From Tridacna crocea (Eukaryota > Mollusca > Bivalvia > Cardiida > Cardiidae): 64,000 nucleotides of DNA. Within the stretch, counting starts at the first letter, position 1; each line of letters begins with the position of its first letter. The translations under genes and the position numbers were made by a program. The notes beneath the pieces are model-generated. The model did not search any database. It was not told the DNA's origin and saw nothing but the letters and a program-made list of their open reading frames with translations. This document shows positions 2,575 to 63,828 of this stretch, piece by piece. The stretch spans positions 43,362,173 through 43,426,172 of the forward strand of contig OX031070.1 of the NCBI GenBank assembly GCA_943736015.1, written 5' to 3'.

Positions 2575-2772
2575 CTTTACCCATTACCACACAATCCCTA
2601 CTTTTGACGACAATGAGGAAGAAGCCTTCAGAAGACATTATGGGAAAAGGAGAAAATGCTGGTAACCAGCATTTTCTCCTCAAATTTCAGTTTTTCAGTC
2701 ACTTTTATTTTATCGTCTGCAAGTGCTTTCGTTTTGGACAAAACTAAAATTTTGTCGTTTGGTAATGAATTT
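2575..2772 (+). mobile_element. TTAA-type MITE, family A, ends altered
   Basis: Left end TTTACCCATTACCACACAAT, core GCTGGTAACCAGC, right end TTTGGTAATGAATTTA. The right half of the palindrome is shortened. Same family as the intact copy at 29107-29334. Confidence 0.8.
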
Positions 2773-2897
2773 AGTTTAGTTTAAACATGTTTATTGTACA
2801 TCGAGTGAGAAACAAAGTTCTAACAACTTATGCGAATCTCTCTCGATTCAGCTTCCTGGGAACTACACCAGTACTTGCGCCGAATGTGTGAATGTGG
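2768..2897 (-). mobile_element. 3' part of SINE-like element
   Basis: Read on the - strand, it matches the 3' half of the SINE at 5592-5800: the block with TTCCCAGGAAG, the ATCGAGAGAGAT motif and the AACTTGTTT-like tail. The tRNA-like head is missing. Confidence 0.65.
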
Positions 2898-2924
2898 TAA
2901 TGAATTAACAGCTTGAAATCATAT

Positions 2925-3675
2925 TCAATCAACATTGTGAGAATAGGAAAAAATGCTGGTTACCAGCTTTTTTTCCTTTTTCTACAATGTTTTCAAAATA
3001 CTTATTCCTCAGGTTCTCTTAATCCTTTACCGAATAACCCCTGGTTTTTACGACCCTGAGAAAGAAGCCTTTAGAAAACATTGTGGGAAAAGGAGAAAAT
3101 GCTGGTAACCAGCATTTTCTCTATTTTCCCACAATGTTTTCTGCCCTTCCAAAACCAAATTTCAATTTTTCAGTCACTTTTATTTTGTAGTCTGAAAGTG
3201 CTTTAGACGTGGAGAAACCTAAAATTTTGTCGTAATAATGATTTAGAATCATGAAACATTTAATCAACATTATGGGTAAAAGGAGAAAATGCTGGTTACC
3301 AGCATTTTCTCCTTTTCCCATAAAGTCTTCAAAATACTTTTTCCCCAGGGTCATTAAACCCGTTACTAAATAATCCCTGGTTTCTACGACTCTTGGATAG
3401 AATCATTTTAAAAACATTGTGGGAAAGGGAGAAAATGCTGGTAACCAGCATTTTCTCCATTTCCCATAATGTTGATAAAATAATTTCATGGTGCTTAATC
3501 ATTATTGAACGACAAAATTTTTGGTTTGTCCAAATCGAAAGCCAAATTTCTCCCTTTCCCACAATGTTTTCTATCCTTCTGGAAATAAATTTCAGTTTTT
3601 GAGTTACGTTGGTTGTGTCGTCTGCAAGTGCTTTCAATCTGAACAAGTCTAAAATTTTGGCGTTTGGTAAACTGG
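2925..3675. mobile_element. Cluster of nested and partial family A MITEs
   Basis: Four hairpin cores occur in about 750 bp (near 2955, 3110, 3295, 3445), plus a further right arm near 3550-3672. Orientation alternates (centre base A or T). Partial ends suggest repeated insertion into earlier copies. The cluster ends just before the unique upstream region of Tbx1/10. Confidence 0.8.
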
Positions 3676-4355
3676 GGATCGTGAAATAAAGTACTGCAGA
3701 GTACTTGTAACATTATGTTTTCATCGCATATCGCAGAGAAACTTTGTAACCTCCCATCTGCATGGAACGAAAGTCTGTCTCTGCCTCTTTTTGACATCTC
3801 TGTGAAATTCCCAGCTTATTATCGAATCAGATAATTGTTCGACTCCGCCTTTCCTGATTCTGAGATTAGGAAACCACGCCCACAATTCCTTTCGCGCGTG
3901 CTTCCAAGCAATGCCACAGATCGTTAACGCGAATGGGGCGTATAATGATCGATAGACTGATTACATATTCGTGGAGAAACGAAATAATTTGTAGAATTTC
4001 ACTGAGAGAGAGAAAAAAAGGCGAGAAAAATTCCATCAGTATTGCGTAGGAATACCAATGAATGAAGGCGTGAATACTTTGAGATAGACCATCCGTCCAC
4101 GTGTCTGCTCTTTTTTTTTTTTAAAAAAAAAGAGGTGGGGTAAACCGATTGGAGAAAAGGCGGACCGAATTTTTTTTTTGCCTGCGAGATGAAGTGAGAA
4201 GTGAGTTGTCACAGAAGCGGAGAGTTAACAGACAGAACTAGTTTTCACTATCACTTTTCCTCGAGTGTTTATCACCTTGGATTGCAAACCGTTGGCTTCA
4301 TCCGTCAGCGGCTTCTGGAAGTGTTATCAAGGATAAGGAACGAATCTATCCGCGT
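3673..4355 (+). promoter_or_regulatory. Repeat-poor upstream region and probable 5' UTR of Tbx1/10
   Basis: This is the longest stretch near the gene start without a recognisable MITE. It is richer in GC and CpG than its surroundings around 3840-3960, with a CACGCCC box (Sp/KLF-like) near 3876 and TCGCGCG near 3892. A TATAAT-like string sits near 3941, but a promoter cannot be assigned from it. A poly-T/poly-A stretch near 4111-4130 breaks the region. The transcription start is not identifiable by eye; the UTR call rests only on position upstream of the first coding ATG. Confidence 0.45.
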
Positions 4356-4548
4356 ATGGATGTATCGGGCGCTTTGTCAATACGGGCGAGTGCATTTAGT
4401 ATCAACAATCTTATGTCAGGGCCTCTGAGTGAGTTGGGGTTCGGGGCTGGTTTTGGGTATTCGATCGTGCCACCCCAGCGAAGCAGCGATTGCTGTTTTG
4501 ACTGGGGCCAGGGAGCACCCTACGGAAATGGAATGAAAACTATGGAAG
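4356..4548 (+). CDS. Tbx1: Tbx1/10 coding exon 1 (eh1-like motif)
   Basis: Encodes residues 1-64 plus the first base of codon 65. It begins [28 protein letters not shown] fits the eh1 pattern (F-S-I-x-x-L/I-L/M) used by T-box and homeodomain repressors to bind Groucho/TLE, and a similar RANAFSI sequence occurs near the start of Tbx20. The rest is Gly/Ser rich. The donor reads GAAG|GTAGGG. The phase-1 end matches exon 2, where G+CT gives Ala. Confidence 0.85.
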
Positions 4549-7500
4549 GTAGGGGCTGGTGATTTTTTCTTATCAAACAATCTGGAGTTTTAATGACTAT
4601 GACACAGGAAAAGTGGCTTTGGAAAACATTGTGAATATTGTGGGGAAAAGGAGAAAATGCTGGTATTCATTTTTTCTCCCATTTTCCCCACAATGTTTTC
4701 CACCATTTTTTGAAAAAAAAAATGTTGTCATAAAAATCGCATTCCGATTGTTCTAATGCAGGAACTTTTAAACCTTAGACTACAAAGCGCTACTCAAAGA
4801 CATTTTGCGGACAGTGTAGATTAAGATCAGACTGCACAGAACGTGCAGTCTGATCTTGAATCTACACTGTCCGTGAAGAAGATATTTTTTTCCCTGAAAA
4901 TATCTTTGAAATAGTAAAATCTTGGGTTTTTTTATGCTATAGGCTTGAAAGAGTTTTTTTTTTACTTACATGTATTAAACTTAATGGGACTCAAAGACCT
5001 TTGGCGGACACTGTAGATCAAGATCAGACTGCACAGAACGTGCAGTCTGATCTTGGATCCACACTGTCCGATAAGGATATTTCTTTCACAGGAAATACCT
5101 TTAAAATAGCTAAATCATTTTTTTTTTTAATATATAGACGTGAAAGTTTCTTTTTACTTCCTTAACTCTGTACCTAACGACAAAATTGTAGACTGGTCCA
5201 AATTGAAAGCACTTGCAGACGACATGATAAATGTTGCTCAAAAAACAACATTTGTTTTTGGAAGGGTAGAAAACATTGTGGGGGAAGGAGAAAATGCTGG
5301 TTACCAGCATTTTCTCCTTTCCCTACAATGTTTTCAAAAGGCTTCTTTCTCAGTGTCGTTAAAAGTCGGGATTGTGTGGTAAAGAGTTAAGTTAATGTGA
5401 ACGGGTCTACAATTTCGTTCTCTTGGAAAGAGTCAATCGGTATAAAAAATAAACATTAAAATCACATTCCTTTTCAGTTCTCAAAAAAAAAAACGATTAT
5501 ATCAAAGTTTAGACAAAAGAAGATATTTTTAAGGAAAAAAAAAAGAGAAATATATATTGCTCATCAGCAATTATTACAATTACACGTTGTGTAGTGTCCG
5601 TGGTTGTGAAGTAAAGCGTCGGCCTCGTAACCTAAAGGTCCCGAGTTCGATACCCAGGAGCGGATGTCAACTTTGGGATTTTTCATCGGCCCACACATTC
5701 GGCGCGAGTACTGGTGCAGTTCCCAGGAAGGAGAATCGAGAGAGATAAGTATAAGTTGTAGGAACTTGTTTCTCAACCGACGTAAAATAAATATGTTCAA
5801 ACTAATTATTATAAGCAAGTATGCGGAAAAAGGAGCAAGACCTTATTCCAAGCAAATGTTCTTTTTTGCCCAACAATATTTTTTTCAATGCTTGAATTTT
5901 TTTGAAATATAAAACGATGTTTTTTATACAGTAATTGGTTGACTAACTGTTTTGTGGATTTGTATTCTAGGTTATATTTAGTAAACTTCATACTCAAATC
6001 AAAGTAATTTTGATCATAAAATTGAACTAATCTGTCGGTATGCTTATAGCCGAATTTAAAACAAACGAGTTTCACTTATTTTCTGTAACAGACGACAAAT
6101 TTTGAGACTCTTCCGAATTCAAAGAATTGGCAGACAAAAAATAAAACATGACGCGCACGATAGTTGTTTTCTTTAACTATTTACCATACGACAACATTTT
6201 TAGACTGGTCCATGTTCAAAGCGTTTGCAGACGACAAATTTAACTTAACTGAAAAATTAAAACTTGTTCTGGGAGGGTTGAAAACATTGTGGAAAAAGAA
6301 GAAAATGCTGGTTACCAAAGTCAACTTGACTCAAAAATTTAAACTTGTTCTGGGAGGAGGGTTGAAAATATTGTGGGAAAAAGAGAAAATGCTGGTTACC
6401 AGCATTTTCTCCGTTTCCCACAATGTTTTCAAAATGCTTCTATCTCAGAGTCGTGAAAACCCGGGGTTGTTTGGTAAAGAGTTAATTAAAATTAAATTTA
6501 AGAAAACTTTTGTTAGAAAAAAAGAGACATGCTGATGACCAGTATTTTCTCCCTTTCTGACGATATTTTCATAAAACTTCTTTTCTCGGGGTCAATAAAA
6601 CTTGGCATTATTTGGTTAAAGGCAAATACCGAATTGGAGTAGAATTTGACCTTAAGAGCAAGAGCGAAAATGTTAATATAATATACATTTTTTTTTTCGT
6701 TCAGAAGAAAAAAAGGACCTAAACACATGCAACATAAATGAGTGTATTTGTCAGAAATTCGCCGAAGTGGCGGGCAGGGTAGATCCAAGATCAGACTGCA
6801 TGCACTGTTCGATCCTGATCTACAGTGTCGTAAAAAAAGCAGTCTGGTTTTAGGTTATGTTGCCTACAAAAATCAATTTTAGTTATGGATTAATATTTAA
6901 CGCTATGTGACAAAACTTGGTTTTAGAATGAAATACGGTTTCCCCCCATGGTCCGGCTACCATTAAGTAAACTTCTTCAAAGGTGTTTTGTCGTTTGATT
7001 TCTGTAAGTTCTGCTGTATTTGAGGAGAATATTTACTGCAGTAAGAAATATATTTTTTGGCGATCATTTTGCATTTTGTTTTTCTAGGTATGAAAAAAAA
7101 AAAACATCACAGCAGCGACGAAAGAATATCATGCTGTCTGATCTTGAATCTGTACACCGTATACTATCCGATGTGGACTTTGACAAAAATCATCTTAAAA
7201 CTGAGTCGTGTTGTTGGAAAAGAGGATTAATTGTATTTGCAAAAAGTATCGACCCATGTCAGCCTGCGCAGTCCGCGCAGGCTGACATGGGTCGAAACTT
7301 TTTGCTTTCGGTAAATTTTCTGCGTCTACAAGGATCATTTTACCTTGAAATTGACCCATAATTATATGAACCATACCCTGTGAAAAGAGAGCTTAGTCAT
7401 TGCGCGGCATCTGCGAAAAGTATCGACCCAGATCAGCCTGCGCAGACGTGCAGCTTGATCTGGGCCGAAACTTTTCGCTATTGGTCATTTTCTTGTATGT

Positions 7501-10500
7501 ACATGACCCATTCTACCTCGTGATTGAGTCGGTTGTTCGGTGTTAAAAAAAAAAGTTGTGGATCCATGAGTATATAAGTATATGACGGCTTGCGTGGTAC
7601 CAAGGGACACAGAGATACGTTAAGCCCCTTCTATCAGAGCAATGCTCAATTACAATGTTGTAATAAGTGTGGTACATCATTGAGATAGAGAGCATAATTA
7701 TTTGCTTTTTTTTGGTTTAAGATCGAAATTCATTTCATCGACTGAACATCATCTATAATATTTTTACAAGTGGCGCAGAAAATGTTACCCATGGTGTTCA
7801 CGAGGTGAATTAAACTTCGATCTTTCACCGAAAAAAAAAATCTATTTATTTCATGCTTTTAGCCCTTTCTAGGTGGTGGGGGTGGAATTTTATCAAAAAC
7901 CAGTATAGTTCTTTTCAGTTATTCCCCTTGGCGTACTCCCTCCGCATAGCAACACATTATGTACTATATTACACAAGTGCGAGAAATGTAAGGTAAATTA
8001 CGTCACATTTCCATCTGGTTGTGAGGCAGGCGCAATTTACCTAGGTAACTAGAGGGCGGGAACAACTGTTCTGCCCTCAATTGAAGAGTTCGTAAACGAG
8101 AATCGATATTTTCACTGGTCGTAACAATGAAATATCGAAAAATATTTCACTGGTATTTTCAGATAACTTACCGGAAAGCATGAAACAAATACTGAAATTT
8201 CCGTTTCTCAAATAAGACCTTGAAATAACGTAGTGTATATTTAATTGGCAGCCAATGAATTAACTCATTACCGAACGAACTCGAGTTTTAATAATCTTGA
8301 GGGGAGGAAAATACTGTAGAAAATATTGTTATAAAAAGAGAAATGCTAGTAAAAATTATTTTCTGTTTTATTATGTTTTATGACTTTTTATATAGATATA
8401 TGCAACCCTTTGAACCAAATTTTAATCGTCCGAAGTTGCTCTGGATTTGGATTGTAATATTTTGTTTGAAAAGAAAAAAGAAAGACAAAAGTACAGGAAA
8501 AAGAACTGGCATATGCTGAGACTTGAGCCCAAGACCTTTAAAAACGTGTCTCGTGGGCTATAAACTGAGATTCTCTTGCAATTTCTATTTTTTTCTGTCT
8601 TGAAATGTATTGAAATTTTCTTTTATGTAATTGTTCCCTGAAGATATTTCCTATCATTCATTACTTTTAGATTCAGAGCTCCAGATGAAAATATTAATAA
8701 TTCTCCACTAAACACTACGTTGTGGGTACTCATTAGAATCGTCTCGATGAAACGATTCTAATGAGAACCAACAACATAAGGTTTCAAAGAGAAATAACGG
8801 ATTTAAAATATCGTCACTCCCTCTTATCTGGAACTCTATAGACATTTCTAATCCTTAATCACACAATTCCGAGTTTTAACGACCCGAAGAAAAAGGAATT
8901 TTGAAATCGTCGTAAATAAAGGAGAAAATGCTGGTAGCCAGCGTTTTCTCCTTTTCATTTTCTCCTTAACCCACAATATTTTCCACGCTGTCAGAGAAAG
9001 ATTTCATAACTTGTGCAACATTTAACTTGTCGTCTGCAAATGATTTCAATTTTGACCAGTCTAAAAATTTGTAGTCTGGTAAAGCGTTAATGAATGCCAA
9101 CAACCTAGGTTTAAGTTGAGAAAAACTGAATTTCAGAACAACATTATCATTGCCTATCTAGACCCTCTGACTCTGAGCTCGCCAAGATAGGTTTTAAAGA
9201 ACCTAAATTGAAAGTTTCTGAAAACATTGTGGGAAACAGAGATAATAATGGTAACCATTTAAAACATTGTGTGTTTGTGTGTGTTGGAGGGGGTGAAAAT
9301 GCTTATAAACACCATTTTCCTCCTGTTTTCCGACAATTTTTTCAACAAAAAATACCATTATTGACTCAAAATATATCTATGCAAACGCGGACAATTTCAG
9401 AGTGGCTGAAATGGTGCAATCTTGCTTTGATAGGGTGGAAAACTTTGTGGGAAAAGGTTTCTTCCTCACGGGCGTTAAAAGTCGTCATTGTGTGGTAAAG
9501 GGTTAATTAAAAATGTTACCTGCAGAAATAAACTAGTGGCGGACGACTCTAAAATACCATGGTGCCATACGAATGATCAAAATGGTTTAAAGGGGCATTA
9601 CACTTAGTTGTCATCGTTTTATATATTTTTCTTAATCTAAAAAAAGACTGTTAATTTGTATTTGGGTGCAAAAAGCAAAATCTAGATAGATATACATGTA
9701 GAATGTACATGGAATTCCCCCTGTTTTATTGCTGTAAAAGTAGCCCTTCCGTTAGTAACGGTATAGATGTGTTACCTCCAGAGAAAAACTAGTAGTAGAA
9801 GATTCAAAAATACCGTGTGAAATACGGGTAATTGAAATGGTTTAAATGAGCAATAAAACTTAGTTTTGAAGATTTTTTTTATCTTGACAAAAAGACTGCT
9901 GATTTTCATTCGGGTTCAATGATGGGTTAAAAAGCAAAATCTAGATAAAAATACTTGTAGAAAATACAAGGAATTTACCTTTTCTATTGCTGTGAAAATT
10001 CCCCAGTCCGTTAGTAAAGGTATTGCTGCTAGTGCATAACAAGGGCTACTACTAAAATTGGGGCCAGAATCTAATTCACTGTTCCTTTAAATATTTACCT
10101 ATCATTACTTTTTATATTTTAAAATATTGTAACAGACAAAGCAGTTGCTTACAATTTCATCTTTGGACGCAAGTTTTCCAAATTTTGTCATTCACTTGCA
10201 AAACATTTTTTGCAATTGGTTATTTAAAAAGTATCCGTTCCAGCATGTTGGGTAGTCTTGTTTATTTTTGCACACGCAAAAGCAGTATTTTTGCCCTACT
10301 TTATTTTTTGAAACCCGTTCAAAATTCGACTACACCAACTACTATTGCAGTGTTGTTTGACAGTGCTAATGTTTTTTTTTCGGTGCTATAGTGGTAATAA
10401 GGCAGCTAATAAAAATGTTCAAATTATCTAAAGATCTTTAAACCTGTTGAATTGTTGTTTTTTTTAGATTCAAACTGCAGAAAAACTTGTTGAATAAATG

Positions 10501-13445
10501 TGGAAAGGGAGAGACATTAAATTTTTTCTTGTATTAAATAGTTTCTCAGGTTGCCATCCTTTCAACAAGCATTGATACTAATAATACATGTATATGTTTA
10601 GATATATTTTTCTAGCGAACTGCTCACCCCTGCTAGTTCGTATTGAAATTCTGAAGCAAAAAATATTAATGAGGAAAAAAAAGTATTTCTGAATGTCTGA
10701 ATTAAAAAAAAAAAACCTGTTAATGAGGAAAAAAAGTATTTCTGGCTGTCCGAATTTAGAACCATTGTCACACTATCCCAAGTCTTATCCTATGTTTCAG
10801 AAAACCTGGAGAAAAATTATTTTGAAAATATTGCTGGTAACCATTTCATACTTTCAATAACAAGTCCATAATTTTGAGATTATTTTCTTAATTTGTCGCC
10901 TGAAAATGCTTTCAATTCAGGCAAGTCCAAAAAATTGTGTGGTTTTTTTTAGGTAAAGAATTAAGATTTGTAGAATTACCGGTATCGCCCCACTCCCTTA
11001 AACTGCATACGTTATACCAACAGCACGTAACATTTGATTTCGTATCGCAAACACTCTCCTCTTAGTTTTGCTGCTCCTAAATGAAACTTCTTGTAACGAT
11101 TATCAAAAGCTGTAGATGAGCAAACCTTAATTTGGGCTATGTGACACATCACGCAAAAAGGGAACATCTGGGAATTCTGTACAACATTTAGATGAAAACA
11201 GATCAACGATAGTGCAGGTCAGTTTAAAGCTGATGATTCACAAATGGTTGTATAACAAGGTACAAAAGATCACTTTTCATACAGAAAATGTCATCAAAGC
11301 AAAAAGTGTCAATCCTGGTCAGCCTGCGCAATTTGCGCAGCCTGACCAGACTTGACACTTTTCACAGTTTCGAGAAGGTCCCTTTTTGCGTGATGGGTAA
11401 CAAATGTTTTTGTAGGCATTCGAAAGTTATAACCCCTTGCCTTGAGATATTTTTGGGATGATTAGTTCGAAAATCTGTCTTCGTTATCAAAGGTGCTGTC
11501 AACGTAGTCAACAACCATTTCTAGGAACATGTTTTAAGTCGAATTCTAGATTTAGAAAGTAAAGTAAAATCTGATTGGATAAACCATTTGTTTTAGCCAA
11601 TCAGAAATCGTTTTACTTCCAAGTTTATAAAAGTCTTGAGAATAAGACAAAAGAGGTTCCTAAGAATGATAGGTGACTGCCAACCCTAGAGTTGTGACAA
11701 GTCAATTTTTATGACGTCTACTCATTTTCGTAATGGACAACTAACGCTGACATTAAAATGAAGTGTAACGAGTCTTTCTTGATATTTCAGCTTGCTTGAT
11801 GAACGCCGGAACTGGGCGACCTCTGTACGATCCTTTACGCATAGAAAGTAGTCCGGATATTGCGCCGAGGAGCAATCTTACAGATTCACTTTTGGAATCA
11901 AACAAACCGGAAACGGATGTTAATCAAAATAATGACTCCAAAACTGGAGAGTGTACAATGTGTAGTGACCCGCTGGGACCTGAGGACAGCAATAAACCGT
12001 TACATAATAAGTTAATAAATGGAACTTGTCAGTTGGAAATGAAGTCCTTGTGGGACGAGTTTGACGAGCTTGGAACAGAAATGATCGTCACAAAGGCTGG
12101 GCGGTAAGTTTTTGTTTTTACTTTGCTTGACAATTTTTTCTTGTTGTCCTTGCCACCAGTAGAAAAACAAACAATATGTTATTATTATTCCTACATTTTC
12201 CATGAAAAATTCATGTACCCGTTAAATAAGAACTACAATACCAGTAGAGTTCGGTTTGGTTTTTTTTTTTGCAATCACGTGTTTGTTTAGAAACGCATTG
12301 TAAATAAAAATATTTGGTTACAGTACTTAACAGCATTTCAAAGCCGAACTTTTTATAACTTAAGGATTACCCTGCCTTAACTCTTTACCAAACGACAAAA
12401 TTTTAGGCTTCTCCAAATCGAAAGCATTTGAAGATGACAAAATAAAAGTGGTTGAAAATTTGTAATTTGTTTCGTAAAGGATAGAAAACATTGTGGGAAA
12501 AGGAGAAAATGCTGGTTATCAGCATTTTCCCCTTTTCCCACAATGTTTTCTAAAGGCTTTTATCTCGGGGGCGTCAAAAGTAGGGATTGTGTGGTAATGG
12601 GTTAAATTCGTTTCGCCAGCATGTTTATTATTTCAATATTTGATAAACAATCGACAGGAATTAAAAGGAAAAGCAAACTCCCTGTAAAACAAAATTTTGA
12701 AATTGTGTAGTTATATGTTAATACTGAAAGGACAAGGCAGTTTTTAAGATAAAGCAGCGAGTATGTGAAAGAAAAACTGCAATTTCATTTGGAAGCAAAC
12801 ACATTATTAAGGTAAAGGACAATACGTTTTTTTCGACAACATATAAGCGAAGAGAACTTGAAAATTAACAGACTCACACAAATGTATAACCAAAAGAAAA
12901 ATGCATGAAATGTGTTTTTATTTTTTTAAAACTTCTCATGCGACATTTTTCGTGTGTGTGTAAAAATTCATTTTACATTTTACAAATAGGTTAATAAGCG
13001 ATAATCCTATGCATTCATCAATGGATATTAGGTTTGTCTTTCATGAATATTTATTTAAACGCTCATAAGTTAGACAACTGTAATATTTTTTATGAGAAAC
13101 TTTAAAGAAACTTTAAAGACGTACATTAAAAATATTTTTATATCTTTACAGTCTATGTCAGACAAGGATTTCGTCTATACAATATTTGGTATCAATCCAA
13201 ATTTCTATTCTATTATTAATGGAATGAGTGAAAGTTTTTATGTCAATGTAGTCTATTTACTACATAGTATCTTGAACTCATACAGACAGGCACATCACAT
13301 TATGTGATGTGCTTATCTCGAGCATAACAATTGTCTTCTTTACTTGGTGCTTAATATTGACTTAATTTTTCGTTTCGGTTAAGTCCTCTATGTGTAGCAC
13401 CATGTGAAAATTACCTTTGCCCCCCTTTTCCTCTTCTCTCTCTCC

Positions 13446-13479
<34 letters not shown>

Positions 13480-16400
13480 ACAGCGTATCATTGATATGAT
13501 TATGCTTTTTGTTTGTTTGTATGTGTTTGTATGCATTTTCTTTTGTAAATCTTCTATATGGAGGAAATAAAGATTATTATTATTATTATTATTCTAATTA
13601 ATATAAAGAGATCATCTTATTTCACCCCCCCCCCTTTCCATGCTTAGAATTAATTTACAAATTATGGATTATTCGTGAAAATACGAAAAGAAAAAGATAT
13701 TTAGTAGCTGTAATCTACGAAGACCTGGTTGTTGTCTATGATCATAGTATTACAATTTAACTAAACATATTTAAAGATTGATTGACCAAAATCGTCATTT
13801 TTGAAATTCTTTTTTAATCCTGTTAAATATTTCAACTCTGTCTCGTTAATAATCAGTTAATATTCAAATTGAAAAAAAAAACGCAAGGTATTATCTAAAA
13901 GGTTACTGAGAACAAAATTAGTGACTTATAAACCATTTGATTACATAAAGTGGTTAAACTATTTCTTTACAGATGTTGAAATATTTTATTACTAAATAAT
14001 AGCAAAACAAAATTTGTTACCCTGACCCGTTATAGCATGGCTGGAATTTTTGTATACCGATACAATTAGTTGTCAGATTCGGGGAAAATATCTTAAGATC
14101 GGGAGCTTTTATTTATCAAAAGCAAAAGTTAGCGTTATGCTTCCTATATTAATCATAATTGGAAAAAAAATCTCTCAAGCATCGCTCCTGTCTATTATTT
14201 AGTCTAGATTTTGGTAGATGTCTAACATAATCTGTATCGTTTATGGTCAAGGCGCCAATGGTATAGATATTTAAGAACTTAAAAGAATTATATATTTTCC
14301 TTCCTTTCATTTTCTTTCTTTGAATGTTTTTTTTTTTGTACTTGTGTGTGTGTTAGTGTGTTGTTGAGTCAGATTATGTGTAAATAGTCATATAAATAAA
14401 CTAAATATACATTCTATAGATCAGCCAAAACGTAGTACCAAATGGATTAGTTTAATGAAATAAAAGCTTTTCTGTAAAACTGTTCATGTTAGATAAAAGA
14501 TTGCAGTTGTTCATTGCACCAAACAACAGTTCACTGTCGACTAATTGAAAGATTATGGCCACGAGAGGACAGGACTTCCTCATTTTCATTACATTTAACA
14601 CAATAAAAAGCAATATGTTGATCTGTATATAAATTAAAATCTCGTCTAATTCTCGCATAAATTCACTTGCCACGAGGTTTGATTAATCGAACGATGCTAA
14701 CGAAATTAGCGTTCCCGGTGCTTTCTCCGTTCATACGAGTGCTCCCCTGGGATGAAATAATCTGCAATACGTGTCGTGTGCACTTCCACTAGATTTTCCC
14801 TGAGCGAAATAAATAAATATCTGTTGAAATCTAATTTTCTTCTAACCTTTTGATATAATCCACCTCTTTTGTCAGGTGATTCATTTTTCAAACTGTATAA
14901 AAAATGACAAGCTTTTGCATTTCTAAATCTATATTACGTTTCATTTCCAGTTGTCTTTCTCGGTGGCTTTAAAATGTTTCAATTTCTCAAGACTGAAAAT
15001 CTGAATGGAACATAGGGAACACGCGACTAATGAGCGTGAAGATTTGTAAACAAACTGTGAAATCGAGCGCCCCTACTGGTCAGTGGTGATAAATCAAGTG
15101 CACCCTGCAATGATCAGACGAGGCTGGGCGATAAATGGTTCCGGATCAAATCCAAACTCGTTGCGGATAATTTCATCTTGAAATTTTTGTACTATTTTAT
15201 GGGATGATTGTCGTATTATTGCATGGTAAAGTGCTACAATTTTCGGACCGCTTCTTCACCCAGTTTTTCTGCCGAATAACTTATCTGATGAAAAGAAAAC
15301 ATCGACTAAAAAAGAAGAAGCGCGAATATTTGGGCGAGAATTCTTTTATGCACATTTACACCCACAGAACTAAATCGGAGAGCCCAAAATCTTTAGTCAT
15401 TGTCCTATATGATGTAACATATCATCGATTTGCTTCCAAAACCTAGTAACTACAGCTTGTAACAAGCGGTAGTTACGAGGTTTTGCAAGCAAACCGACGA
15501 TATAGGGAATACATTTTTATTCCGTAAATAAATAAATCTAAATATTTTTATTGCACACCCTCAGACTACTTTATTTGTCATTTTGCCTAGCACTACTCCG
15601 TTGGTTTTTTTCTTAAATTTTCATTTTTTTTACTTTAGTTGAAGGGATGAAAATTATTATTTCTAGGATAAATTCTAAACAATACGGAAAATAATCATAT
15701 TTTGTGCGCACGTTTTTGATTTGGGTAATGAAACTGAAATTCTATAACATTGTTGAAAAGGCATAAAAAAGAAGTTTTTTTTTTTTTTAATTTACTCTTT
15801 AATAATAATAATAATGTACATTTATATAGCGCTATATCCCGGACAAACCAGGTTCACAGCGCTGTACAATCTCATACTCTTTGAAAAATCTTACAATCCA
15901 GCAGAATCAAATATTGCAAAAATAAAAAAGTTATTTTGAGCTATTAAAACGGGTCAAACTGTGACATAAGGGGGCCTAATGTAACTCTGTAATTAATGAT
16001 TTCTAGCAAATTATCGCGTGATTCTGTATCCATTTGTCTAACATCCGGGCGACTCAATCATTGAGTAAACTGGACCTTGGACATGTATAAAATTGACTTA
16101 TGGCAAAAACATTGCTGCACAGGTCAGCCTACGCAGATTGTGCAGGCTTGTCTGGGACGATACCTTGTGCCGGTAAATTAAGTGCCTTTTTTTTTCATAG
16201 AGCCTGACTGAAATATTATGTTAGATCACTGTATGATTATCATTCATACAATTTGCATTTTTTCCCCTTTTTGCGTGTTTTTTTTTGTTTCACGTTTTTT
16301 TTTTTGTATTTACATACTGCAAGCTTAACCCATTACCACACAATCCCTACTTTTGACGACCGTGAGAAAGAAGCCTTTAGAAAGCACTGTGGGAAAAGGA

Positions 16401-22400: not shown

Positions 22401-24304
22401 AGCTCCAGCTTTCTCTAAACTGCTGATCATATCTGAGTGAATTGCACGAGGTAGCGTTTTATTGAGCAAACATTTATTTTAGTTTGTATTTCAAAGTAAC
22501 GGTTGTCGCATAGGAAAGTGGTTCGGTTCTGTACCCAGGATGCCCAAATTAGATAGATGAGTATTTATAGAATGCCATTTAGCGGGAGATAATGTCGTAT
22601 ACACGGACGCGAAAAATAAGGTGTGTGCTCCAAGTTATAGCGTCACTAAATTATACGTAAAACAAAGGCATAAAAAAAGGGAGTATTTTTTTTATTTTGA
22701 TTTATCTGTCACAGAAAAGTCAAATAACTTCGTACATCAGAACAAAATCAAGTTTACTGCCCTTTTCGATTTTTTTTGTAATGCTGGCTTTTCGAAATAT
22801 TGTTCCATGTCCCTTTCAAGGTTTAAAATAAAAAGTACAGAAAAAATTTTTAGTGTAGTAAACAGATCTCCCTCAACCCATTCAGTACAATCTGCACGTG
22901 TCTTCAAAGGACCTTCAAAAGAATTGCATTTAGGCTTTGTTTTTTTTTTTGTTTGTGTACACGTTCGTTCTTTTGTTTGTTTGATGCTTATCGCCGTTTT
23001 CATCATTATTTCAGTTATATCGTGACAGCCAGTGCTCGTGTTGAAAGTTATTTTATTATGATATTTCAACTGTCATCAATTGCATCTACATTGACAGTCC
23101 GAATTAACTTTTTTTGTCTATTTAACCCTTTCCCAGACGACAAAATTTGGACTCTTTCAAACTAAAAGAGTTTGCAGACGACAATTTTAGATTTTGAGAA
23201 AATGGCGGAATGTTCTCAAAAAGGGTAGAAAACCCTGTGGGAAAAGGAGAAATTGCTCGTAACGAGCAATTTCCCCTTTTCCCACAGTGTTTCCAAAAGA
23301 CTTTTACTGCAGACACGTAAAAACCAGGGCTTGTTTGGGAAAGGGTTAGCATAGGCACTCGGTTTCCATAACTTTTACACCTTAACCCATATCCTGCTAA
23401 ATAACTAAAATGAAATTTTCAATTCGATAGTAAAAGCCAAAAAAATGTTATTCCAAAGGTATTTTTTAGGGAATAAAATCTCCAGATCGGACAGCGTAGA
23501 TCCAAGATCAGACTGCACGTTCTGTGCAGTCTGATCTTGATCTTCGCTGTCCGCAAAACGTCTGTGAATCGCGATAAGCAGCCAAAGAGTTAACATTTAT
23601 TTCTGTCAGGTACAAAAGTAAAAGATTGGGAAACCGAGTGCCTGTGCTATTTAGTTCTGAATGGAAAATGGATAGGGCAAATGAAAACAAAGGAATATAT
23701 AGATATCTTCAGTTTCCTGTATATCAAAAAAAAATACAAACACCCTTCAAATTCTCTGATGATGCCATTGCACCAATGTCTGACAGCTCTAGAATGACGA
23801 AAAATATAAATAAGAATAGGATAGCCTTTTAGTGCACCATTGCTTCACAGATTTTAAGGTCAGGTGGAGGGAGCTTTCAAATTTTGCTCACAAACTTTAT
23901 ATGTAAATACCTTCGACTTTGCAAAACCCCAAATTTCTGGAACACAGGTAAAAATTAAGCTGAGGAAAGAGTTATTGTTTACATAATCTTTTTGGCCCTA
24001 AAGATAGGTTCTTACATTTCACTAATAACACTGACAGTACCTTATAAGCTTCTCACCAATTATAAGTTTGAGCAGAAAGTATAATTCTTGTGCCCAGATA
24101 AATAAAAGTCAAATGTTTCAAAGTCCTATAAAAGCTCTCTTTTTCTCTTTCTCTCTTTGTTTCTGTCTCTGTCTCCCTCTATCCCTCTCTCTTTCTGTGT
24201 CTATCTCGGTCGCTCTCTATCTATCTCTGTATCTCTCTTTCTGTGTATATCTCTGTCTCTCTCTATCTACCTGTCTCTGTCTCCATAGATCTCTATCTAT
24301 CTTT

Positions 24305-30163: not shown

Positions 30164-30196
<33 letters not shown>

Positions 30197-45379: not shown

Positions 45380-45600
45380 CTTTAATCCTTTACCACACAA
45401 CAACCTTTTACACTTACAGAAATTTACAAGCACTCGCAGACAATAGAATATTTGTGACTGGGATGATCGGATCTAATTTAGAAAAGGTAGAAAACATTGT
45501 GTGGAAAAAAAACAACAGAAAATGCTGGTCACGAACAATTTTTTTGTCTACATTGTTTTCAAAAGGCTTTTTTATCTCCGCGTCTTTAACTTGACAAAAG
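45380..45600 (-). mobile_element. Degenerate family A MITE
   Basis: TTTAATCCTTTACCACACAA left end, GAAAACATTGTGTGGAAA arm; core decayed (GCTGGTCACGAAC). Confidence 0.7.
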
Positions 45601-53410: not shown

Positions 53411-53414
53411 GTGA

Positions 53415-53596
53415 TTAACCCTTTTCCAAACTGTCCCTAGTTTTTATGACCCTGGGACAAAAGCCTTTTGAAAACATTGTGGGAAAAGAAGAAAATGCTG
53501 GGCAACCAGCATTTTCTCCTTTTCCCACAATGTTTTCTCCCCATGCTTGAAACAACTTTCAGTTTTTGGCTTACGTTTATTTCGTCGCCTTCAATG
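53415..53596 (+). mobile_element. Family A MITE truncated by a SINE
   Basis: TTAACCCTTTTCCAAACTGT left end, palindrome core GCTGGGCAACCAGC, and right half up to CGTCGCCTTCAATG where the SINE begins. Confidence 0.82.
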
Positions 53597-53800
53597 TGGT
53601 GTCCGTGGTCGTGAGGTAGAGCGTCGGCCTCATAACCTAAAGGTCCTTAGTTCGATACCTGGGAGCGGGTGTCAACTTCGGGATTTTTCATTGGCCTACA
53701 CATTCGGCAAGTACTGGTGTAGTTCCCAGGAAGCAGAATCGAGAGAGATCAGTATAAGTTGTAACAACTTGTTTCTTAATCGATGTAAAATGTTTGTTTA
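53592..53800 (+). mobile_element. tRNA-derived SINE inserted in a MITE
   Basis: GTGTCCGTGGTCGTGAGGTAG head, B-box-like TAGTTCGATACC, body TTCCCAGGAAGCAGAATCG and tail AACTTGTTTCTTAATCGATG. About 85% like 5592-5800 by eye. Confidence 0.82.
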
Positions 53801-54026
53801 ACCCATTACCACACAATACCTACTTTTGACGCCCTTGAGGAAGATGCCTTTAGAAAACATTGTGGGAAAAGGAGAAAATGCTGGTAACCAGCATTTTCTC
53901 CTTTTCCTACAATGTTTCCTACCCTTCACAAATCAAATTTCAAATATTCAGTCACTTTAATTTTGTCATCTGTAAATGCCTTCGATTTGGGCAAACCTAA
54001 AATTTTGTCGTTTGGTAATGAGTTAA
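53798..54026 (+). mobile_element. TTAA-type MITE, family A, full length
   Basis: 229 bp, TTAACCCATTACCACACAAT to TTTGGTAATGAGTTAA. Core GCTGGTAACCAGC. It begins right at the SINE tail. A further right-end fragment is at 54038-54075. Confidence 0.9.
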
Positions 54027-56099: not shown

Positions 56100-56345
56100 T
56101 TTGACCCTTTACCACAAAGTCCCGAATTTTAAAGACCCTTAAGAAGAAGCCTTTTGAAAACATAATGGGGAAAGAAGACAATGCTTGTTACCAGCATTGT
56201 CTTCTTCTTCCACAAAGTTTTCTACCCTTTTAAAGAAATATTGCACCAATTTAGCTACTAATGAAATTGTAGTCTGCAAATGCTTTCATTATACCAGAAA
56301 ACAGACTTTAACCTTTTACCACACAGTCCCGAATTTTAACAGTTC
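56100..56345. mobile_element. Family A MITE, diverged, plus a second left end
   Basis: TTTGACCCTTTACCACAAAG, palindrome AATGCTTGTTACCAGCATT with GAAGACAATG / CATTGTCTTC arms (paired change from GGAGAAAATG). At 56307 a second left end TTAACCTTTTACCACACAGT begins and stops. Confidence 0.75.
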
Positions 56346-56540: not shown

Positions 56541-59500
56541 AGTAAGCCTCGCACAAAAGCAAATGGTCCATTACAAAAGCAAATGGTCCGCTACCTCTCA
56601 CAAAAGCAAATGGTCCACTACCTCGTACAAAAGCAAATGGTCCACTTCCTGGTACAAAAGCAAAATGTCCACTACCTTTTACAAAAGCAAATGATCCACT
56701 ACCTCGAACAAAAGGCAAATGATCCACTACCTCGAACAAAAGGCAAATGATCCACTACCTCGTACAAAAGGCAAATGATCCACTACCTCGTACAAAAGGC
56801 AAATGGTCCACTACCTCGTACGAAAGCAAATGGTCCACTACCTCGCACGAAAGCAAATAGTCCACTACCTCGCACGAAAGCAAAATGTCCACTACCTCTC
56901 ACGAAAGCAAACAGTCCACTGCCTCGCACAAAAGCAAACGGTCCACTACCTCGCACAAAAGCAAATAGCCCACTACCTCGCACAAAAGCAAACAGTCCAC
57001 TATCGCGCACAAAAGCAATTGGTCCACTATTGCGTACAAAAGCAATAGGTCCACTACCTCGCACGAAAGCAAATGGTCCACTTCCTCGCACATAAAGCAA
57101 ATTGTCCACTTCCTCGCACATAAAGCAAATGGACCACTTCCTCGCACAAAAAGCAAAAGGACAATTACCTCGCACAAAAATCAAATGGCCCACTACCTCG
57201 CACAAAAGGCAAATGGTCCACTACCTCGCACAAAAGGCAAATGGTCCACTTCCTCGTACAAAAGGCAAATGGTCCACTACCTCGCACAAAAGGCAAATGG
57301 TCAACTACCTCGCACAAAAGCAAATGGTCCACTACCTTACCTTGTACAAAAGCAAATAATCCACCACCTCGCACAAAAGCAAATGGTCCACCGCCTCGCA
57401 CAGAAGCAAGTGGTCCACCGCCTCGCACAGAAGCAAGTGGTCCACCGCCTCGCACAGAAGCAAGTGGTCCACCGCCTCGCACAGAAGCAAGTGGTCCACC
57501 GCCTCGCACAGAAGCAAGTGGTCCACTACCTCGCACAAAAGCAAATTGTCTACTACCTTTCCTCGCACAAAAGCAAATGGTCCACTACTTTACCTCGCAC
57601 AAAAGCAAATGGTCCACCGCCTCGCACAAAAGCAAGTGGTCCACCGCCTCGCACAGAAGCAAGTGGTCCACCGCCTCGCACAGAAGCGAATGATCCACCG
57701 CCTCGCACAGAAGCAAGTGGTCCACTGCCTCGCACAGAAGCGAGTGGTCCACCGCCTCGCACAGAAGCGAGTGGTCCACCGCCTCGCACAGAAGCAAGTG
57801 GTCCACTACCTCGCACAAAAGCAAATTGTCTACTACCTTTCCTCGCACAAAAGCAAATGGTCCACTGCCTCACACAGAAGCAAGTGGTCCACTACCTCGC
57901 ACAAAAGCAAATGGTCCACTACTTTACCTCGCACAAAAGCAAATGGTCCATCGCCTCGCACAGAAGCAAGTGGTCCACCGCCTCGCACAGAAGCAAGTGG
58001 TCCACCGCCTCGCACAGAAGCGAATGATCCACCGCCTCGCTCAAAAGCAAGTGGTCCACCGCCTCGCACAGAAGCGAATGATCCACTGCCTCGCACAAAA
58101 GCGAATGGTCCACTGCCTCGCACAAAAGCAAATGGTCTACTACCTTTCCTCGCACAAAAGCAAATGGTCCACTCCCTCGCACAGAAGCAAGTGGTCCACT
58201 GCCTCGCACAAAAGCAAATGGTCCACTACTTTACCTCGCACAAAAGCAAATGGTCCACCGCCTCGCACAGAAGCGAGTGGTCCACCGCCTCGCACAGAAG
58301 CGAGTGGTCCACCGCCTCGCACAGAAGCGAATGATCCACCGCCTCGCACAGAAGCGAGTGGTCCACCGCCTCGCACAGAAGCGAATGGTCCACCGCCTCG
58401 CACAGAAGCGAGTGGTCCACCGCCTCGCACAAAAGGCAAATGGTCCACTATCTCGTACAAAAGGCAAATGGTCCACTCTTTCACACAAAAGCGAATGGTC
58501 CACTACCTCGCACAAAAGGCGAATGGTCCACTTCCTCGCACAAAAGGCGAATGGTCCACTCTTTTGCACAAAAGCGAATGGTCCACTACCTAGCAACAAA
58601 AGCGAATGGTCCACTACCTCGTACAAAAGCGAATGGCCCACTACCTGGTACAAAAGCGAATGGTCCACCATCTCGTACAAAAAAAAATGGTCCACCACCT
58701 CGCACAAAAGCAAATGGTCCACCACCTCGCACAAAAGCGAATGGTCCATTGCCTCGCACAGAAGCAAGTGGTCCATCACCTCGCAGAGAAGCAAGTGGTC
58801 CACCGCCTTGCACAGAAGCGAATGGTCCACTGCCTCGCACAAAAGCAAGTGGTCCACCGCCTCGCACAAAAGCGAATGGTCCACCGCCTCGCACAAAAGC
58901 GAGTGGTCCACTGCCTCGCACAGAAGCGAATGATCCACTGCCTCGTACAAAAGGCAAATGGTCCACTATCTCGTACAAAAGGCAAATGGTCCACTCTTTC
59001 ACACAAAAGCGAATGGTCCACTACCTCGCACAAAAGGCGAATGGTCCACTACCTCGCACAAAAGGTGAATGGTCCACTTCCTCGCACAAAAGGCCAATGG
59101 TCCACTCTTTTGCACAAAAGCGAATGGTCCACTACCTCGCACAAAAGCGAATGGTCCACTACCTCGTACAAAAGCGAATGGCCCACTACCTGGTACAAAA
59201 GCGAATGGTCCACCATCTCGCACAAAAGAAAATGGTCCACCACCTCGCACAAAAGCGAATGGTCCATCACCTCGCACAGAAGCAAGTGGTCCACTGCCTC
59301 GCACAGAAGCTAGTGGTCCACTGCCTCGCACAGAAGCGAGTGGTCCACTGCCTCATACAGAAGGGAATGGTCCACTCTCTCGCACAGAAGCTGATGGTCC
59401 ACCACCTCGCACAAAAGCCAATGGTCCACTACCTCGCACAAAAGGCAAATGGTCCACTACCTCGCACAAAAGCGAATGGCCCACTACCTCGTACAAAAGC

Positions 59501-60705
59501 GAATGGCCCACTACCTCGTACAAAAGGCAAATGGTCCACTACCTCGTACAAAAGGCAAATGGTCCACTCTTTCGTACAAAAGCGAATGGTCCAATACCTC
59601 GCACCAAAGCGAATGGCCCACTACCTCGTACAAAAGCGAATGGTCCACTACCTCGTACAAAAGCGAATGGTCCACTATCTCGTACAAAAGCGAATGGTCC
59701 ACTATCTCGCACAAAAGCGAATGGCCCACTGCCTCGTACAAAAAGCGAATGGTCCACTGCCTCGTACAAAAAGCGAATGGTCCACTGCCTCGTACAAAAA
59801 GCGAATGGTCCACTGCCTCGAACAAAAAGCGAATGGTCCACTACCTCGAACAAAAGCAAATGATCCACTATCTCGCACAAAAGCGAATGGTCCACTACCT
59901 CACACAAAAGCGAATGGTCCACTATCTCACACCAAAGCGAATGGTCCACTACCTCGTACAAAAGCGAATGGCCCACCACCTCGTACAAAAGCGAATGGTC
60001 CACTGCCTCGTACAAAAGCGAATGATCCACTACCTCGTACAAAAAGCGAATGGTCCACTACCTCGTACAAAAAGCGAATGGTCCACTACCTCGCACCAAA
60101 GCGAATGGTCCACTACCTCGCACCAAAGCGAATGGTCCACTACCTCATAAAAAAGTGAATGGTCCACTATCTAGTACAAAAGGCAAATGGTCCACTACCT
60201 CGTACAAAAGGCAAATGGTCCACTCTTTCACACAAAAGCGAATGGTCCACTACCTCGCACAACAAGCAAATGGTCCACTACCTCGCACAAAAGCGAATGG
60301 CCCACTACCTCGCACAAAAGCAAATAGACCACTACCTCGTACAAAAGCAAATGGACCACTACCTCGTACAAAAGCAAATGGACCACTACCTCGTACAAAA
60401 GCAAATAGTACACTACCTCGTACAAAAGCAAATGGTCCACTACCTCGCACAAAAGGCAATTGGTCCACTACCTCGTACAAAAGCAAATGTTTCACTACCT
60501 CGTACAAAAGTTAATAGTCCACTACCTTGTACAAAAGTAAACGGTCTAGTACCTCGTTCAAAAGCAAACGGTCTAATATCCTGTAAAAAGCAAATTTTCC
60601 ACTTCCTTGTACAAAGCAAATGGTACACTTCATTGTTCAAAAATAAAGGATCCACTTCCTTGTACTAGAGCATTTGGTCCCCAACCTCGTTCAAAAGCAA
60701 CTAGT
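56540..60705 (+). repeat. 27 bp minisatellite, about 150 copies, 4.2 kb
   Basis: Unit parts: CTCGCACAAAAGCAAATGG followed by TCCACTAC. Unit length of 27 bp (9 codons) and lack of stops in most frames give long overlapping open frames on both strands, the longest 58440-60158 (572 codons; NGPLPRTKA repeats). Some units have 28 bp (AAAAGGCAAATGG), which shifts frame. Variant blocks: CGCACAGAAGCAAGTGG with CCGCC (57380-58430), GCGAATGG (58480-60150). Edges are more diverged than the middle. Not called as a gene. Confidence 0.97.
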
Positions 60706-61261: not shown

Positions 61262-61491
61262 TTAACACATTACCAAACGACAACATTTTAGGCTTGTCCA
61301 AATCGAAAGCATTTGCAGACGACAAAATAAAAGTGACTGAAATTTTGAAATTTGTTCAGTAAAAGGTAGAAAACATTGCGGGAAAAGGAGAAAATGCTGG
61401 TTACCAGCATTTTCTCCTTTTTCCCACAATGTTTTCTCAGGGCTCCATTCTCAAGGCCGTCAAAAGTAGGGATTGTGTAGTAATGTGTTAA
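61262..61491 (-). mobile_element. TTAA-type MITE, family A, full length
   Basis: TTAACACATTACCAAACGAC to GTGTAGTAATGTGTTAA, 230 bp, core GCTGGTTACCAGC. Both ends share the change to ACACATTAC / GTAATGTGT. Confidence 0.92.
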
Positions 61492-62139: not shown

Positions 62140-62297
62140 AAGTCATCACGTGATCATGAATTCATAAAAACCATTTTATCTGGCAACCGACCGGATCATG
62201 AGATAGAGTGGTCCTTAGACATTAATGAAATTTATAAAAAGCAAAAAGTTTCGACTCATGTCAGCCTGCGCGGAATGCGATATTTTTTGCAGATGAA
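62140..62297. repeat. Truncated family Q repeat
   Basis: Flank GAAAGTCATCACGTGATC, ACCGGATCATGAGATAGAG and hairpin arm AAAAAGTTTCGACTCATGTC; the return arm is mostly deleted (GCGATATTTTTTGC). Confidence 0.65.
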
Positions 62298-62681
62298 TTA
62301 AGGTAGTGGACCCCTAATAGAAAACAGCTATTTCAGGTATAAAATTATCCTACAAAATTTACTATGTTTAAAAATGAGTATAATAGTACTAGTTTAACCC
62401 AGCTACTTTTTCATATTTTTCCTTCGTGGAATTATCGCTTATAAATCTAAAACCACTATATTCTCATTACGAAAGCAGATAGTAATGACCCCCCCCCCCC
62501 CCCCCCCGCTTTCTGGAAACTAACAAACGTATCAACAAATGATTTCAAGACAGACATAGAAGGAACTTCTGGTCTGTTAAAAATGTACAAAAGTATTATA
62601 TCTGTATAAATCCATATTTATCAACTTTCAAGAAATTCTGGTTCATGCTGGACTAGAAGTGTTACGGGTCTACTGCCTTAA
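62298..62681 (+). mobile_element. TTAA-type MITE, family D, full length
   Basis: 384 bp from TTAAGGTAGTGGACCCCTAA to CGGGTCTACTGCCTTAA: inverted ends and TTAA at both sides. No central hairpin like A-C. A C run (62491-62508) interrupts it. It shares its last TTAA with the next element. Confidence 0.88.
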
Positions 62682-62906
62682 CTCATTACCAAACGACAAA
62701 ATTTCAGGTTTGTCCAAATCGAAAGCATTTGCAGACGACAAAATAAAAGGGACTAAGAACTTGAAGTTTGTTTTGTGAAGGGTAGAAAAAATTGTGGGAA
62801 AAGGAGAAAATGCTGGTTACCAGCATTTTCTCCTTTTCCCACAATGTTTTCCAAAGGCGCCTTTCTCAGGGTCGTCAAAAGTAGGAATTGTGTGGTAATG
62901 GCTTAA
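62678..62906 (-). mobile_element. TTAA-type MITE, family A, full length
   Basis: 229 bp, TTAACTCATTACCAAACGAC to TGTGGTAATGGCTTAA. Long palindrome, core GCTGGTTACCAGC. Confidence 0.92.
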
Positions 62907-63229
62907 GACCCTCTTTTTCACAAAGCGTGGCTCATTAATATATATATATATAAAAAGATTACACATTATCTCGAGATATTCAGGCTACAAGCTTCGTGAA
63001 TTTGTCAAACGCCAAATTGTTAAGTTATATATCAAAGTGATAGCATCTTAAACCCTTTACATCATGCAGCAAATTTTTCAGACATACAAAAATTAGACCC
63101 CCCCCAAAAAAAAAAAACAGACAAAAAAAGAGGTTTCTGATTTCAAACAGAAAGTCACGTATTTCAACTGATTGATTGATTTTGAGTTAAAAGCAGTTTC
63201 AACAATTTAGATCAACTCAAGGCGGTCAG
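62907..63229. other. Intergenic, nothing recognised
   Basis: An (AT)n run lies at 62937-62951 and a CCCCCC/AAAAAA run near 63099-63117. No gene seen. Confidence 0.5.
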
Positions 63230-63422
63230 TGCGCCTACGTATGTGTACTGACACAACTTTCATTCCCAAAAAAAGGTCATTGACTACTTTTCTCACATGC
63301 ATCAAGAGGTGAGATGAGAGTCAAAAATTCGCCGGCAAGAAATATTGCCTCAATTGGATATCGAACCAACAACCACCGGGTCACATGTACGATACGCTAA
63401 CTACTGAGCTACCCGTGCAGGC
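63230..63422 (-). mobile_element. tRNA-like SINE head, - strand
   Basis: On the - strand: GCACGGGTAGCTCAGTAGTT (A-box), GGTTGTTGGTTCGATATCC (B-box), followed by a body with TTTTGGGAATGAAAGTTGTG. Acceptor stem not conserved. Confidence 0.6.
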
Positions 63423-63570
63423 TGCGTATTTCAAAATTGTGAAGAAAATATTGTAGAAAATGTAGAAGATACTAGCTATGGACATTTTTATATTTTGCCA
63501 TATTTTTTTGTCCTTGCATTTTTGTATTTTTTCTTCCTATTAGATACTCCGGATTAATGAAAGTAATGGT

Positions 63571-63828
63571 TTAAATTCTTTACAATAAAATAATTGTTAA
63601 AGAAAATTCTGACACTTTTCCAATTCGAAAGTATTTGCAAATATAAAATACTTTATGTTTATGCTCATTGAATGCAATTCTCTTTGAAAGGATGGAAAAC
63701 ATTGTGGGAGGGAGGAAAAGAAGAAAATGTTGGTAACCAGAATTTTCTCCTTTTTTTCCCCATAATGTTTTCTAAAAGCCTTCTTTTTCAGGATCAGTTA
63801 AAACACAGAATTATGCGGAAATGAGTTA
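63571..63828 (-). mobile_element. Family A MITE, diverged
   Basis: TTAAATTCTTTACAATAAAA left end to GCGGAAATGAGTTAG. Core GTTGGTAACCAG with asymmetric arms due to GGAGGGAGG insertion. Confidence 0.75.

Follow-up and report, generated by a model that had tools for sequence, protein, structure and literature searches.

We report that a stretch of 64,000 nucleotides from the bivalve Tridacna crocea (contig OX031070.1, positions 43,362,173 to 43,426,172; hereafter the window) carries many copies of a superfamily of miniature inverted-repeat transposable elements (MITEs) with a long palindrome inside, and that this palindrome is an integral, concertedly evolving core of the element. The elements are non-autonomous and approximately 229 bp long, and their cut-and-paste movement is most likely due to piggyBac-type transposases encoded by the host. 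Our data suggest that selection on source copies and copying from arm to arm both act on the core, and we are slightly inclined to a functional reading of the palindrome. It would then be a cis-acting part that source copies need for their spread, possibly as a hairpin or cruciform that brings together the two ends of a short and stiff DNA, or alternatively as a symmetric site to which a protein with two-fold symmetry binds. Switching of template from arm to arm would help to keep it symmetric.

The analysis follows up a sequence-only reading of the window. The first of two profiles was built from the seven seed copies named in that reading, aligned over 228-230 bp, and the second from 37 rows (the seven seeds plus 29 further copies from the genome, with the seed at 61262 entering a second time as L001). 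The genome searched comprises 1.05 Gb in 31 contigs, and L numbers label stretches or loci taken from it.

The palindromic core and the evolution of its arms

A central palindrome of 65 bp had been noted in the sequence-only reading; it is present and, in the consensus of family A, perfect, with a length of 67 bases, i.e. GAAAACATTGTGGGAAAAGGAGAAAATGCTGGT, one base, and then the reverse complement of GAAAACATTGTGGGAAAAGGAGAAAATGCTGGT (33+1+33). The lengths of flank, palindrome and flank are 107/67/55 bp in the consensus of family A, 106/67/55 bp in B and 107/67/55 bp in C, and the arms are perfect in all three. Counted from the centre, the arms of B differ from those of A at pairs 26, 8 and 3 and the arms of C at pairs 20, 13, 8 and 3, always on both arms. 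Between A and B the two flanks have 75% and 69% identity, and those of C and A are only distantly alignable (gapped identity 59% and 64%; z 3.3 and 5.7 versus shuffles); in gapped alignments across the families the palindrome is 87-91% identical and the flanks 58-75%. As the three consensus sequences show, the flanks diverged while the core kept its place between them, and its pairing was maintained by two-arm changes. In possessing such a palindromic core at a fixed position (107 and 55 bp from the two ends) the elements differ from ordinary MITEs.

The number of changed arm pairs among the 33 is three between A and B, four between A and C and three between B and C, every one on both arms, and the differences in the inner flanks are 36/131, 50/124 and 52/124 aligned bases, respectively. 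At the flank rate, the probability of so few changed arm pairs is 0.0096, 0.0004 and 0.00004.

Paired changes were also scored in individual copies. Among 66 family-typical copies (27 A, 19 B and 20 C; 36 distinct) there are 62 two-sided cells compared to 22.7 after shuffling, while the number of two-sided pairs, five, is no different from the shuffled mean of 5.1; sliding the partner by 1-3 columns leaves 0-3 two-sided cells. Three of 69 copies (L011, L020 and L112), with 8-10 mismatches and an indel in the palindrome, were left out of this alignment. A set of 43 palindromes from the window and 20 genome stretches, not picked by family, gives 16 two-sided pairs and 49 cells (6.5 and 8.6 shuffled; 2-8 pairs and 6-14 cells in the slid control). 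This set, from which one of 44 was omitted because of its even length (L077, 1249-1314), stems from a palindrome scan requiring at least 26 of 33 pairs and favours paired forms. Exact counts over the whole genome are independent of that selection: for pair 12, G to A, 4,224 occurrences have the change on one arm and 154 on both, where independence predicts 26.8 (5.8-fold), and for pair 14 the numbers are 12,098 and 2,029, with 219.5 expected (9.2-fold). A non-partner double, used as control, occurs 214 times, with 153.3 expected (1.4-fold). Finally, 244 profile-aligned copies show 167 symmetric doubles (51.3 expected), 97 other doubles and 1236 single changes; we give these counts less weight than the later tests since families are mixed in them.

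Once inserted, copies mostly decay on a single arm at a time. In 69 young copies we found 47 one-arm and no two-arm changes, and between the family consensus sequences only two-arm changes. Variants common to several copies, i.e. those at the level of the source, amount to five types in 198 arm sites versus 48 in 402 flank sites (P = 0.00016). Together with the low number of changed pairs, these observations favour constraint on source copies.

Could a palindrome without any function give the same picture, with DNA polymerase switching template between the arms and so keeping the symmetry in source and inserted copies alike? We consider this possible but rather unlikely. Homogenisation of arms together with inversion of the loop is a known process (PMC8794818, PMC8604942), and it would fit the two-arm excess in the genome-wide counts. 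Moreover, copies with closely similar flanks (nearest-neighbour pairs below 0.22 flank divergence) have 16 symmetric doubles where approximately 4.6 are expected, besides 16 other doubles (approximately 9 expected) and 333 single changes; at a flank divergence of 0.22 or more, symmetric doubles number 54, with 21.4 expected, and other doubles 62. The centre base changes from T to A in 13 of 22 cases, compared to 163 of 506 for T bases in the flanks (P = 0.018), as loop inversion would give (PMC8794818). For 11 of the 13 copies with a flipped centre the nearest relative is unflipped, a weak indication given that unflipped copies are far commoner (119 to 13). However, one-arm forms far outnumber two-arm forms, both genome-wide (4224 to 154 and 12098 to 2029) and in the young copies (47 to 0), so correction between the arms is slow, and despite this slowness the three family consensus sequences show no one-arm difference. 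Unbiased correction would also not make changed pairs scarcer than the flank rate predicts, yet they are scarcer.

Several points weaken the functional reading. Only five pairs vary across the three families. Private changes are also rarer in the arms (36/4554) than in the flanks (125/9246; ratio 0.58, P = 0.004), and the direct contrast between shared and private variants reaches only P = 0.044. A table in the manner of McDonald and Kreitman, which sets changes in arms and flanks between families against those within them, shows no significant difference (P = 0.60, 0.66 and 0.16), and hence a lower mutation rate or better repair could explain the low divergence of the arms. In addition, the 69 copies were chosen by BLAST similarity, and the genome-wide counts, which cover just two pairs, would be raised by two-arm subfamilies as well.

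A more demanding version of the functional reading, which we put forward tentatively and rate as no better than possible, would make the palindrome obligatory: an extruded cruciform or hairpin would join the ends at a fixed geometry (arms of 107 and 55 bp) for the transposase or for amplification, and such structure-dependent spread would have led to elements covering approximately 15% of the 1.05-Gb genome. If so, spread would select for pairing and not for sequence.

The palindrome might instead be an older separate element, e.g. a TA-flanked Tc1-type MITE (TAGAAAAC...GTTTTCTA), which inserted a single time into an ancestor of the TTAA MITEs and was then carried along. Other fully palindromic repeat families in this genome and the presence of TA on both sides of several family A arms speak for such an origin. 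We found no convincing free palindrome in the sample examined. From this sample of 140 palindromes (five were too close to an edge to be scored) 135 could be examined for TTAAC-like motifs at the expected distances: 110 have both, 23 one and two none, compared to 371, 1124 and 505 of 2000 random positions. Since 110 of 135 have the motif at both distances, the palindrome is part of the element. One entry of the sample, L014 1694-1759, is not a core but the place where two copies abut. Insertion of a separate element would account for the origin of the palindrome, not for the later two-arm changes and the fixed geometry, and we regard it as improbable.

We think it very unlikely that the palindrome is kept for a product, i.e. 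a transcribed 33-bp hairpin acting as small-RNA precursor for the element or adopted by the host. The consensus stem is a perfect 33 bp, and folding of a single DNA strand of the copy at 62678-62906 gave -49 kcal/mol (z -8.0), far better than shuffles. On the other hand, no Rfam family reaches its gathering threshold within the window.

The centre base is T in 157 of 196 copies that could be oriented by their flanks (A in 24, C in eight, G in five and a gap in two), and it was thus correctly noted that this base usually tells the orientation; the rule holds because any odd-length palindrome with asymmetric flanks gives it. A scan of viral contigs for the palindrome yielded no match, records of the clam's own genome possibly being excluded from that scan.

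The genome also harbours other palindromic families. Copies of one, approximately GCRAAAAGTRTCGACCC..GTCAGYCTGCGCA.., lie at 39, 7239, 7413, 11299, 20860, 27813, 31441 and 51571 in the window and in L006, L010, L023, L066 and L067; by eye, they too show differences on both arms, and palindrome arms may commonly evolve in concert here. Three further families, given in the order in which their window positions were grouped, are AACCTCTGATTGGCTAAACCA (19151, 28547 and 44875), AAAACCTCGTAACTACAGCTTG (15428 and 42219) and TGAACACCATCGGTACTATTTTCACGAGTGGC (47079 and 50520).

Target site, ends and superfamily

TTAA is duplicated on insertion of these elements. The piggyBac transposon at L053 carries a copy (844-1070) between two TTAA, and because eight of its siblings (L035-L041 and L055) read GGC-TTAA-ACC, with a single TTAA, at the same place, we conclude that TTAA is the target duplication; a ninth sibling, L045, is changed at the insertion site. 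The TA duplication of the whole element that would mark a palindromic Tc1/mariner MITE was not seen at the empty site. At a second filled site, L055 3350-3578, six siblings have TTAT, L045 is shorter and none has TTAA; the target was either TTAA in that lineage alone or imperfect. As had been claimed, the copies are bounded by TTAA: among the 21 window copies with at least 200 model columns, 14 have it at both ends and the remaining seven at one. TTAAC and GTTAA stand at the two ends in 18 of 20 fetched B copies and 18 of 20 fetched C copies, and one B miss (L120) is only due to its stretch beginning at the element.

The superfamily was active until recently, through several families. Over 229 bp no base differs between L024 and L029, which lie in different surroundings, and a single difference separates L096 from L099. 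The piggyBac family that hosts the L053 insertion, with copies 94-99.9% identical, is older than this insertion.

The sequence-only reading had assigned the elements to piggyBac, and the target duplication, the tips and 118 genome matches to PF13843, the piggyBac transposase family (some matches being parts of the same gene), agree with this. Among the best 30 of these matches 26 have no stop inside the match. We read 32 of the 118 with their surroundings; they fall into nine families at the DNA level, and ends could be set for four. In short form these ends are CCCTTTATATAC, CCCTWGTCATGC, CCCTTTCAGYGC and CCCATTTATGCCT, all beginning with TTAACCC, and in longer form TTAACCCTTTATATAC, TTAACCCTWGTCATGC, TTAACCCTTTCAGYGC and TTAACCCATTTATGCCT. 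The MITE tips, CYCATTACC, CCCTTTCCC and CCCTTTACT, resemble these piggyBac ends of the same genome. The MITE ends read TTAACCCATTACCACAC / TTAACTCATTACCAAAC in A, TTAACCCTTTCCCAAAC in B and TTAACCCTTTACTCCATAG / TTAACCCTTTACCCCATAAG in C. Families B and C have CCCTTT at both consensus tips, which fits the CC[C/T]T motif inside TTAA. In family A the broader consensus is CCCTTT / CTCTTT and young copies have CCCATT / CTCATT; CCCATT is also found in the piggyBac element L033, and judged from these sequences the motif appears not to be strict in this genome.

Two observations tell against the assignment. Young copies of family A have tips (CCCA and CTCA) outside the strict CC[C/T]T motif, and the search for a partner with the same ends, as proposed in the sequence-only reading, did not succeed: in the 32 of 118 loci read, only CCC(W)TT is shared and no piggyBac element has the longer end of the MITE. 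Since these loci hold no autonomous partner with that end, we base the assignment on the target site and the tip, by which piggyBac is the best-supported superfamily. Like these elements, piggyBac transposons have TTAA chemistry. Another TTAA superfamily such as Kolobok, as for the Xenopus T2-MITEs, has the same target (PMC6004289) and could in principle have supplied the transposase. Its tips are RR or AGGRR (PMC6004289), here they are CYC/CCC, and piggyBac elements with TTAACCC ends are plentiful in this genome; although no search for a Kolobok transposase was made, we give this origin very little credence.

Six loci on as many contigs (L047-L051 and L056, on C15, C3, C5, C9, C10 and C18) resembled piggyBac elements carrying the MITE end, as at first did L059, and were rejected as duplicated segments with nested MITEs. 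The segment, of at least 4.1 kb, has a piggyBac-like frame (492 amino acids in L047-L051 and 462 in L056) and nested MITEs at equal places; five copies are more than 99% and one approximately 98% identical, and it represents a larger mobile or duplicated unit. Beside another piggyBac frame, at L060:980-1060, lies a palindrome of a fourth type (GAAAACATTGTGAAAAAAGAAGCCATTGCTTGT...), with framing inverted repeats and TTAA ends at 911 and 3192.

Abundance and copies in the window

With the second profile (E ≤ 1e-5, overlaps merged) we found 58 matches in the window, 19 of them near full model length, covering 14.86% of its bases; one single-base shuffle of the window gave no match at E ≤ 1e-3, and the cluster noted earlier is hence real. 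The approximately 40 copies reported are present, and they are not specific to the window, where the 58 matches represent an average sample of a genome-wide superfamily. In 20 comparison stretches of 3 kb, at round coordinates on 15 contigs, there are 54 matches (12 full) in 17 of the 20, corresponding to 14.64% of the bases. With this density about equal, the window is ordinary for the genome, a local array was rejected, and the elements make up roughly one seventh of the sampled genome stretches. In 30 piggyBac loci of 4 kb each, a non-random sample, the coverage is 8.93%. The inner 35 bases of the perfect palindrome occur exactly 166,719 times genome-wide and the 34-base end of family A 36,282 times, and neither occurs when read backwards. 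From the former number 10.2 exact inner palindromes would be expected in the window and 9.5 in the 20 stretches, and 10 and five were observed. A rough extrapolation from 60 kb suggests approximately 900,000 fragments and 200,000 near full copies genome-wide. At 229 bp the element is too short to encode a transposase, and in size and copy number it is a MITE.

First-profile matches extend from 2577-2771 to 63612-63828, in keeping with the span reported. The length of 227-230 bp given for full copies is near and a little narrow: of the 21 matches spanning model positions 4-221 or more, 16 measure 226-233 bp and the others 195, 202, 220, 241 and 247 bp. The seven seeds are full copies, at 5162-5390 (+; TTAA at both ends), 12377-12605 (+), 16325-16553 (-), 29107-29334 (-), 53798-54026 (-), 61262-61491 (+) and 62678-62906 (+); in the last of these, which was also folded, the palindrome with its 33-bp arms and one central base occupies 62785-62851 (+). 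Profile matches identified further full copies at 16909-17134 (-), which has a TTAA in common with the next fragment, 26840-27086 (-), 38563-38788 (-) and 40243-40475 (-), and near full copies at 3019-3238 (-), 8850-9090 (-) and 18049-18268 (+). According to an additional end check one TTAA has decayed in the first of the near full copies and in two full-length copies at 25391-25616 (+) and 25623-25853 (-). Family B is represented at 17315-17541 (+), where both arms deviate from A at pairs 26, 8 and 3, 23122-23348 (+) and 39133-39360 (-), and family C, with diverged flanks and arm differences from A at pairs 20, 13, 8 and 3 on both arms, at 30975-31204 (- in the orientation of A; the end is approximate, the right TTAA having decayed). 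Diverged copies lie at 19868-20099 (-; full length) and 45383-45587 (+), truncated ones at 17597-17800 (-), 37385-37571 (-; pair 25 changed on both arms), 53415-53594 (-), 56102-56288 (-) and 63612-63828 (+; also diverged), and a family A-like, internally shortened copy at 2577-2771 (-).

Two profile matches are expanded. The copy at 6173-6485 (+) has an internal 84-bp duplication (x 2) over one palindrome arm (tandem repeat at 6235-6401), and in the copy at 26118-26420 (-) a palindrome arm has grown into a tandem array (41-bp unit x 3; 26191-26316); slippage at the hairpin could produce such arrays. As to a preference for insertion into the TTAA of older copies, abutting copies with TTAA nearby were seen at five places among the 460 TTAA sites of the 20 stretches and at two among the 495 of the window, at least one of these places lying within a single copy.

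As to other features, a T-box domain match (PF00907, E 3.3e-16, profile positions 115-166) at 30243-30401 (+), in the open frame 30069-30485, is probably an exon of a T-box gene. A 4.1-kb array at 56573-60700 consists of approximately 150 copies of a 27-bp unit with 86% matches. The unit is a multiple of three, and therefore both strands have long open frames, which are probably not genes.

Related elements and meaning

In the available portions of the open-access literature searched we did not find a MITE with a long central palindrome that is common to several families and shows two-arm changes, and in this scope the earlier remark that such a palindrome is unusual for piggyBac MITEs was right. 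Among mobile palindromes, the REPINs of bacteria are moved by another transposase. They are likewise abundant and hairpin-forming, in a bacterial host (PMC3116915). The nearest precedent that we found appears to be the coral CMITEs of Acropora, by analogy a piggyBac-type case with TTAA duplication, CC[C/T]T tips that include CCCTTTCCC, tandem arrays and several families with an internal block of 75 bases more conserved than the ends (PMC2872659), as is the palindrome relative to the flanks here. A likely partner was reported for only one of six CMITE families, and the authors suspect a role of the internal block in transposition (PMC2872659). CMITEs are approximately 100 bp long with an estimated 1,600 copies, whereas the present element measures 229 bp and its inner palindrome has 166,719 exact occurrences; the words palindrom- and hairpin are absent from the available text of that paper, and the block was compared by this text and not by the alignment figure (PMC2872659).

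Related as well is DTC84, a Pearl-type MITE of the clam Donax, which in all copies examined has a conserved palindrome near the junction of its internal repeats; it differs in being modular with satellite-like tandem repeats, and TTAA is absent from the available text (PMC5139131). The palindromic, non-autonomous MITE-like elements of Anopheles are palindromic over their whole length of 430-1678 nt, again with no TTAA in the available text (PMC3212995). Xenopus T2-MITEs (Kolobok) are TTAA-specific, abundant and long-lived, whereas their AGGRR tips are not found here and the available text does not mention a palindrome (PMC6004289). In piggyBac and piggyBat the C-terminal domains of the transposase bind short palindromic subterminal sites in pairs; these are 14-19 bp long and near the tips (PMC11707139), in contrast to 67 bases in the middle of the element. 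Hairpins maintained by template switching resemble our palindromes in that compensatory changes of two arms and a loop inversion arise in one mutation event, and they are known from RNA genes, not from the core of a MITE (PMC8794818).

What is new here is that three families keep the geometry and perfect arms while their flanks diverge. MITEs are usually thought to need little beyond their ends, and this superfamily bears on what lets a few of them overrun a genome. Hundreds of thousands of copies with a conserved central palindrome and two-arm changes constitute a natural experiment with very large numbers, in which template switching becomes measurable in palindromes within a single genome. 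A role of internal structure in the success of MITEs also becomes directly testable.

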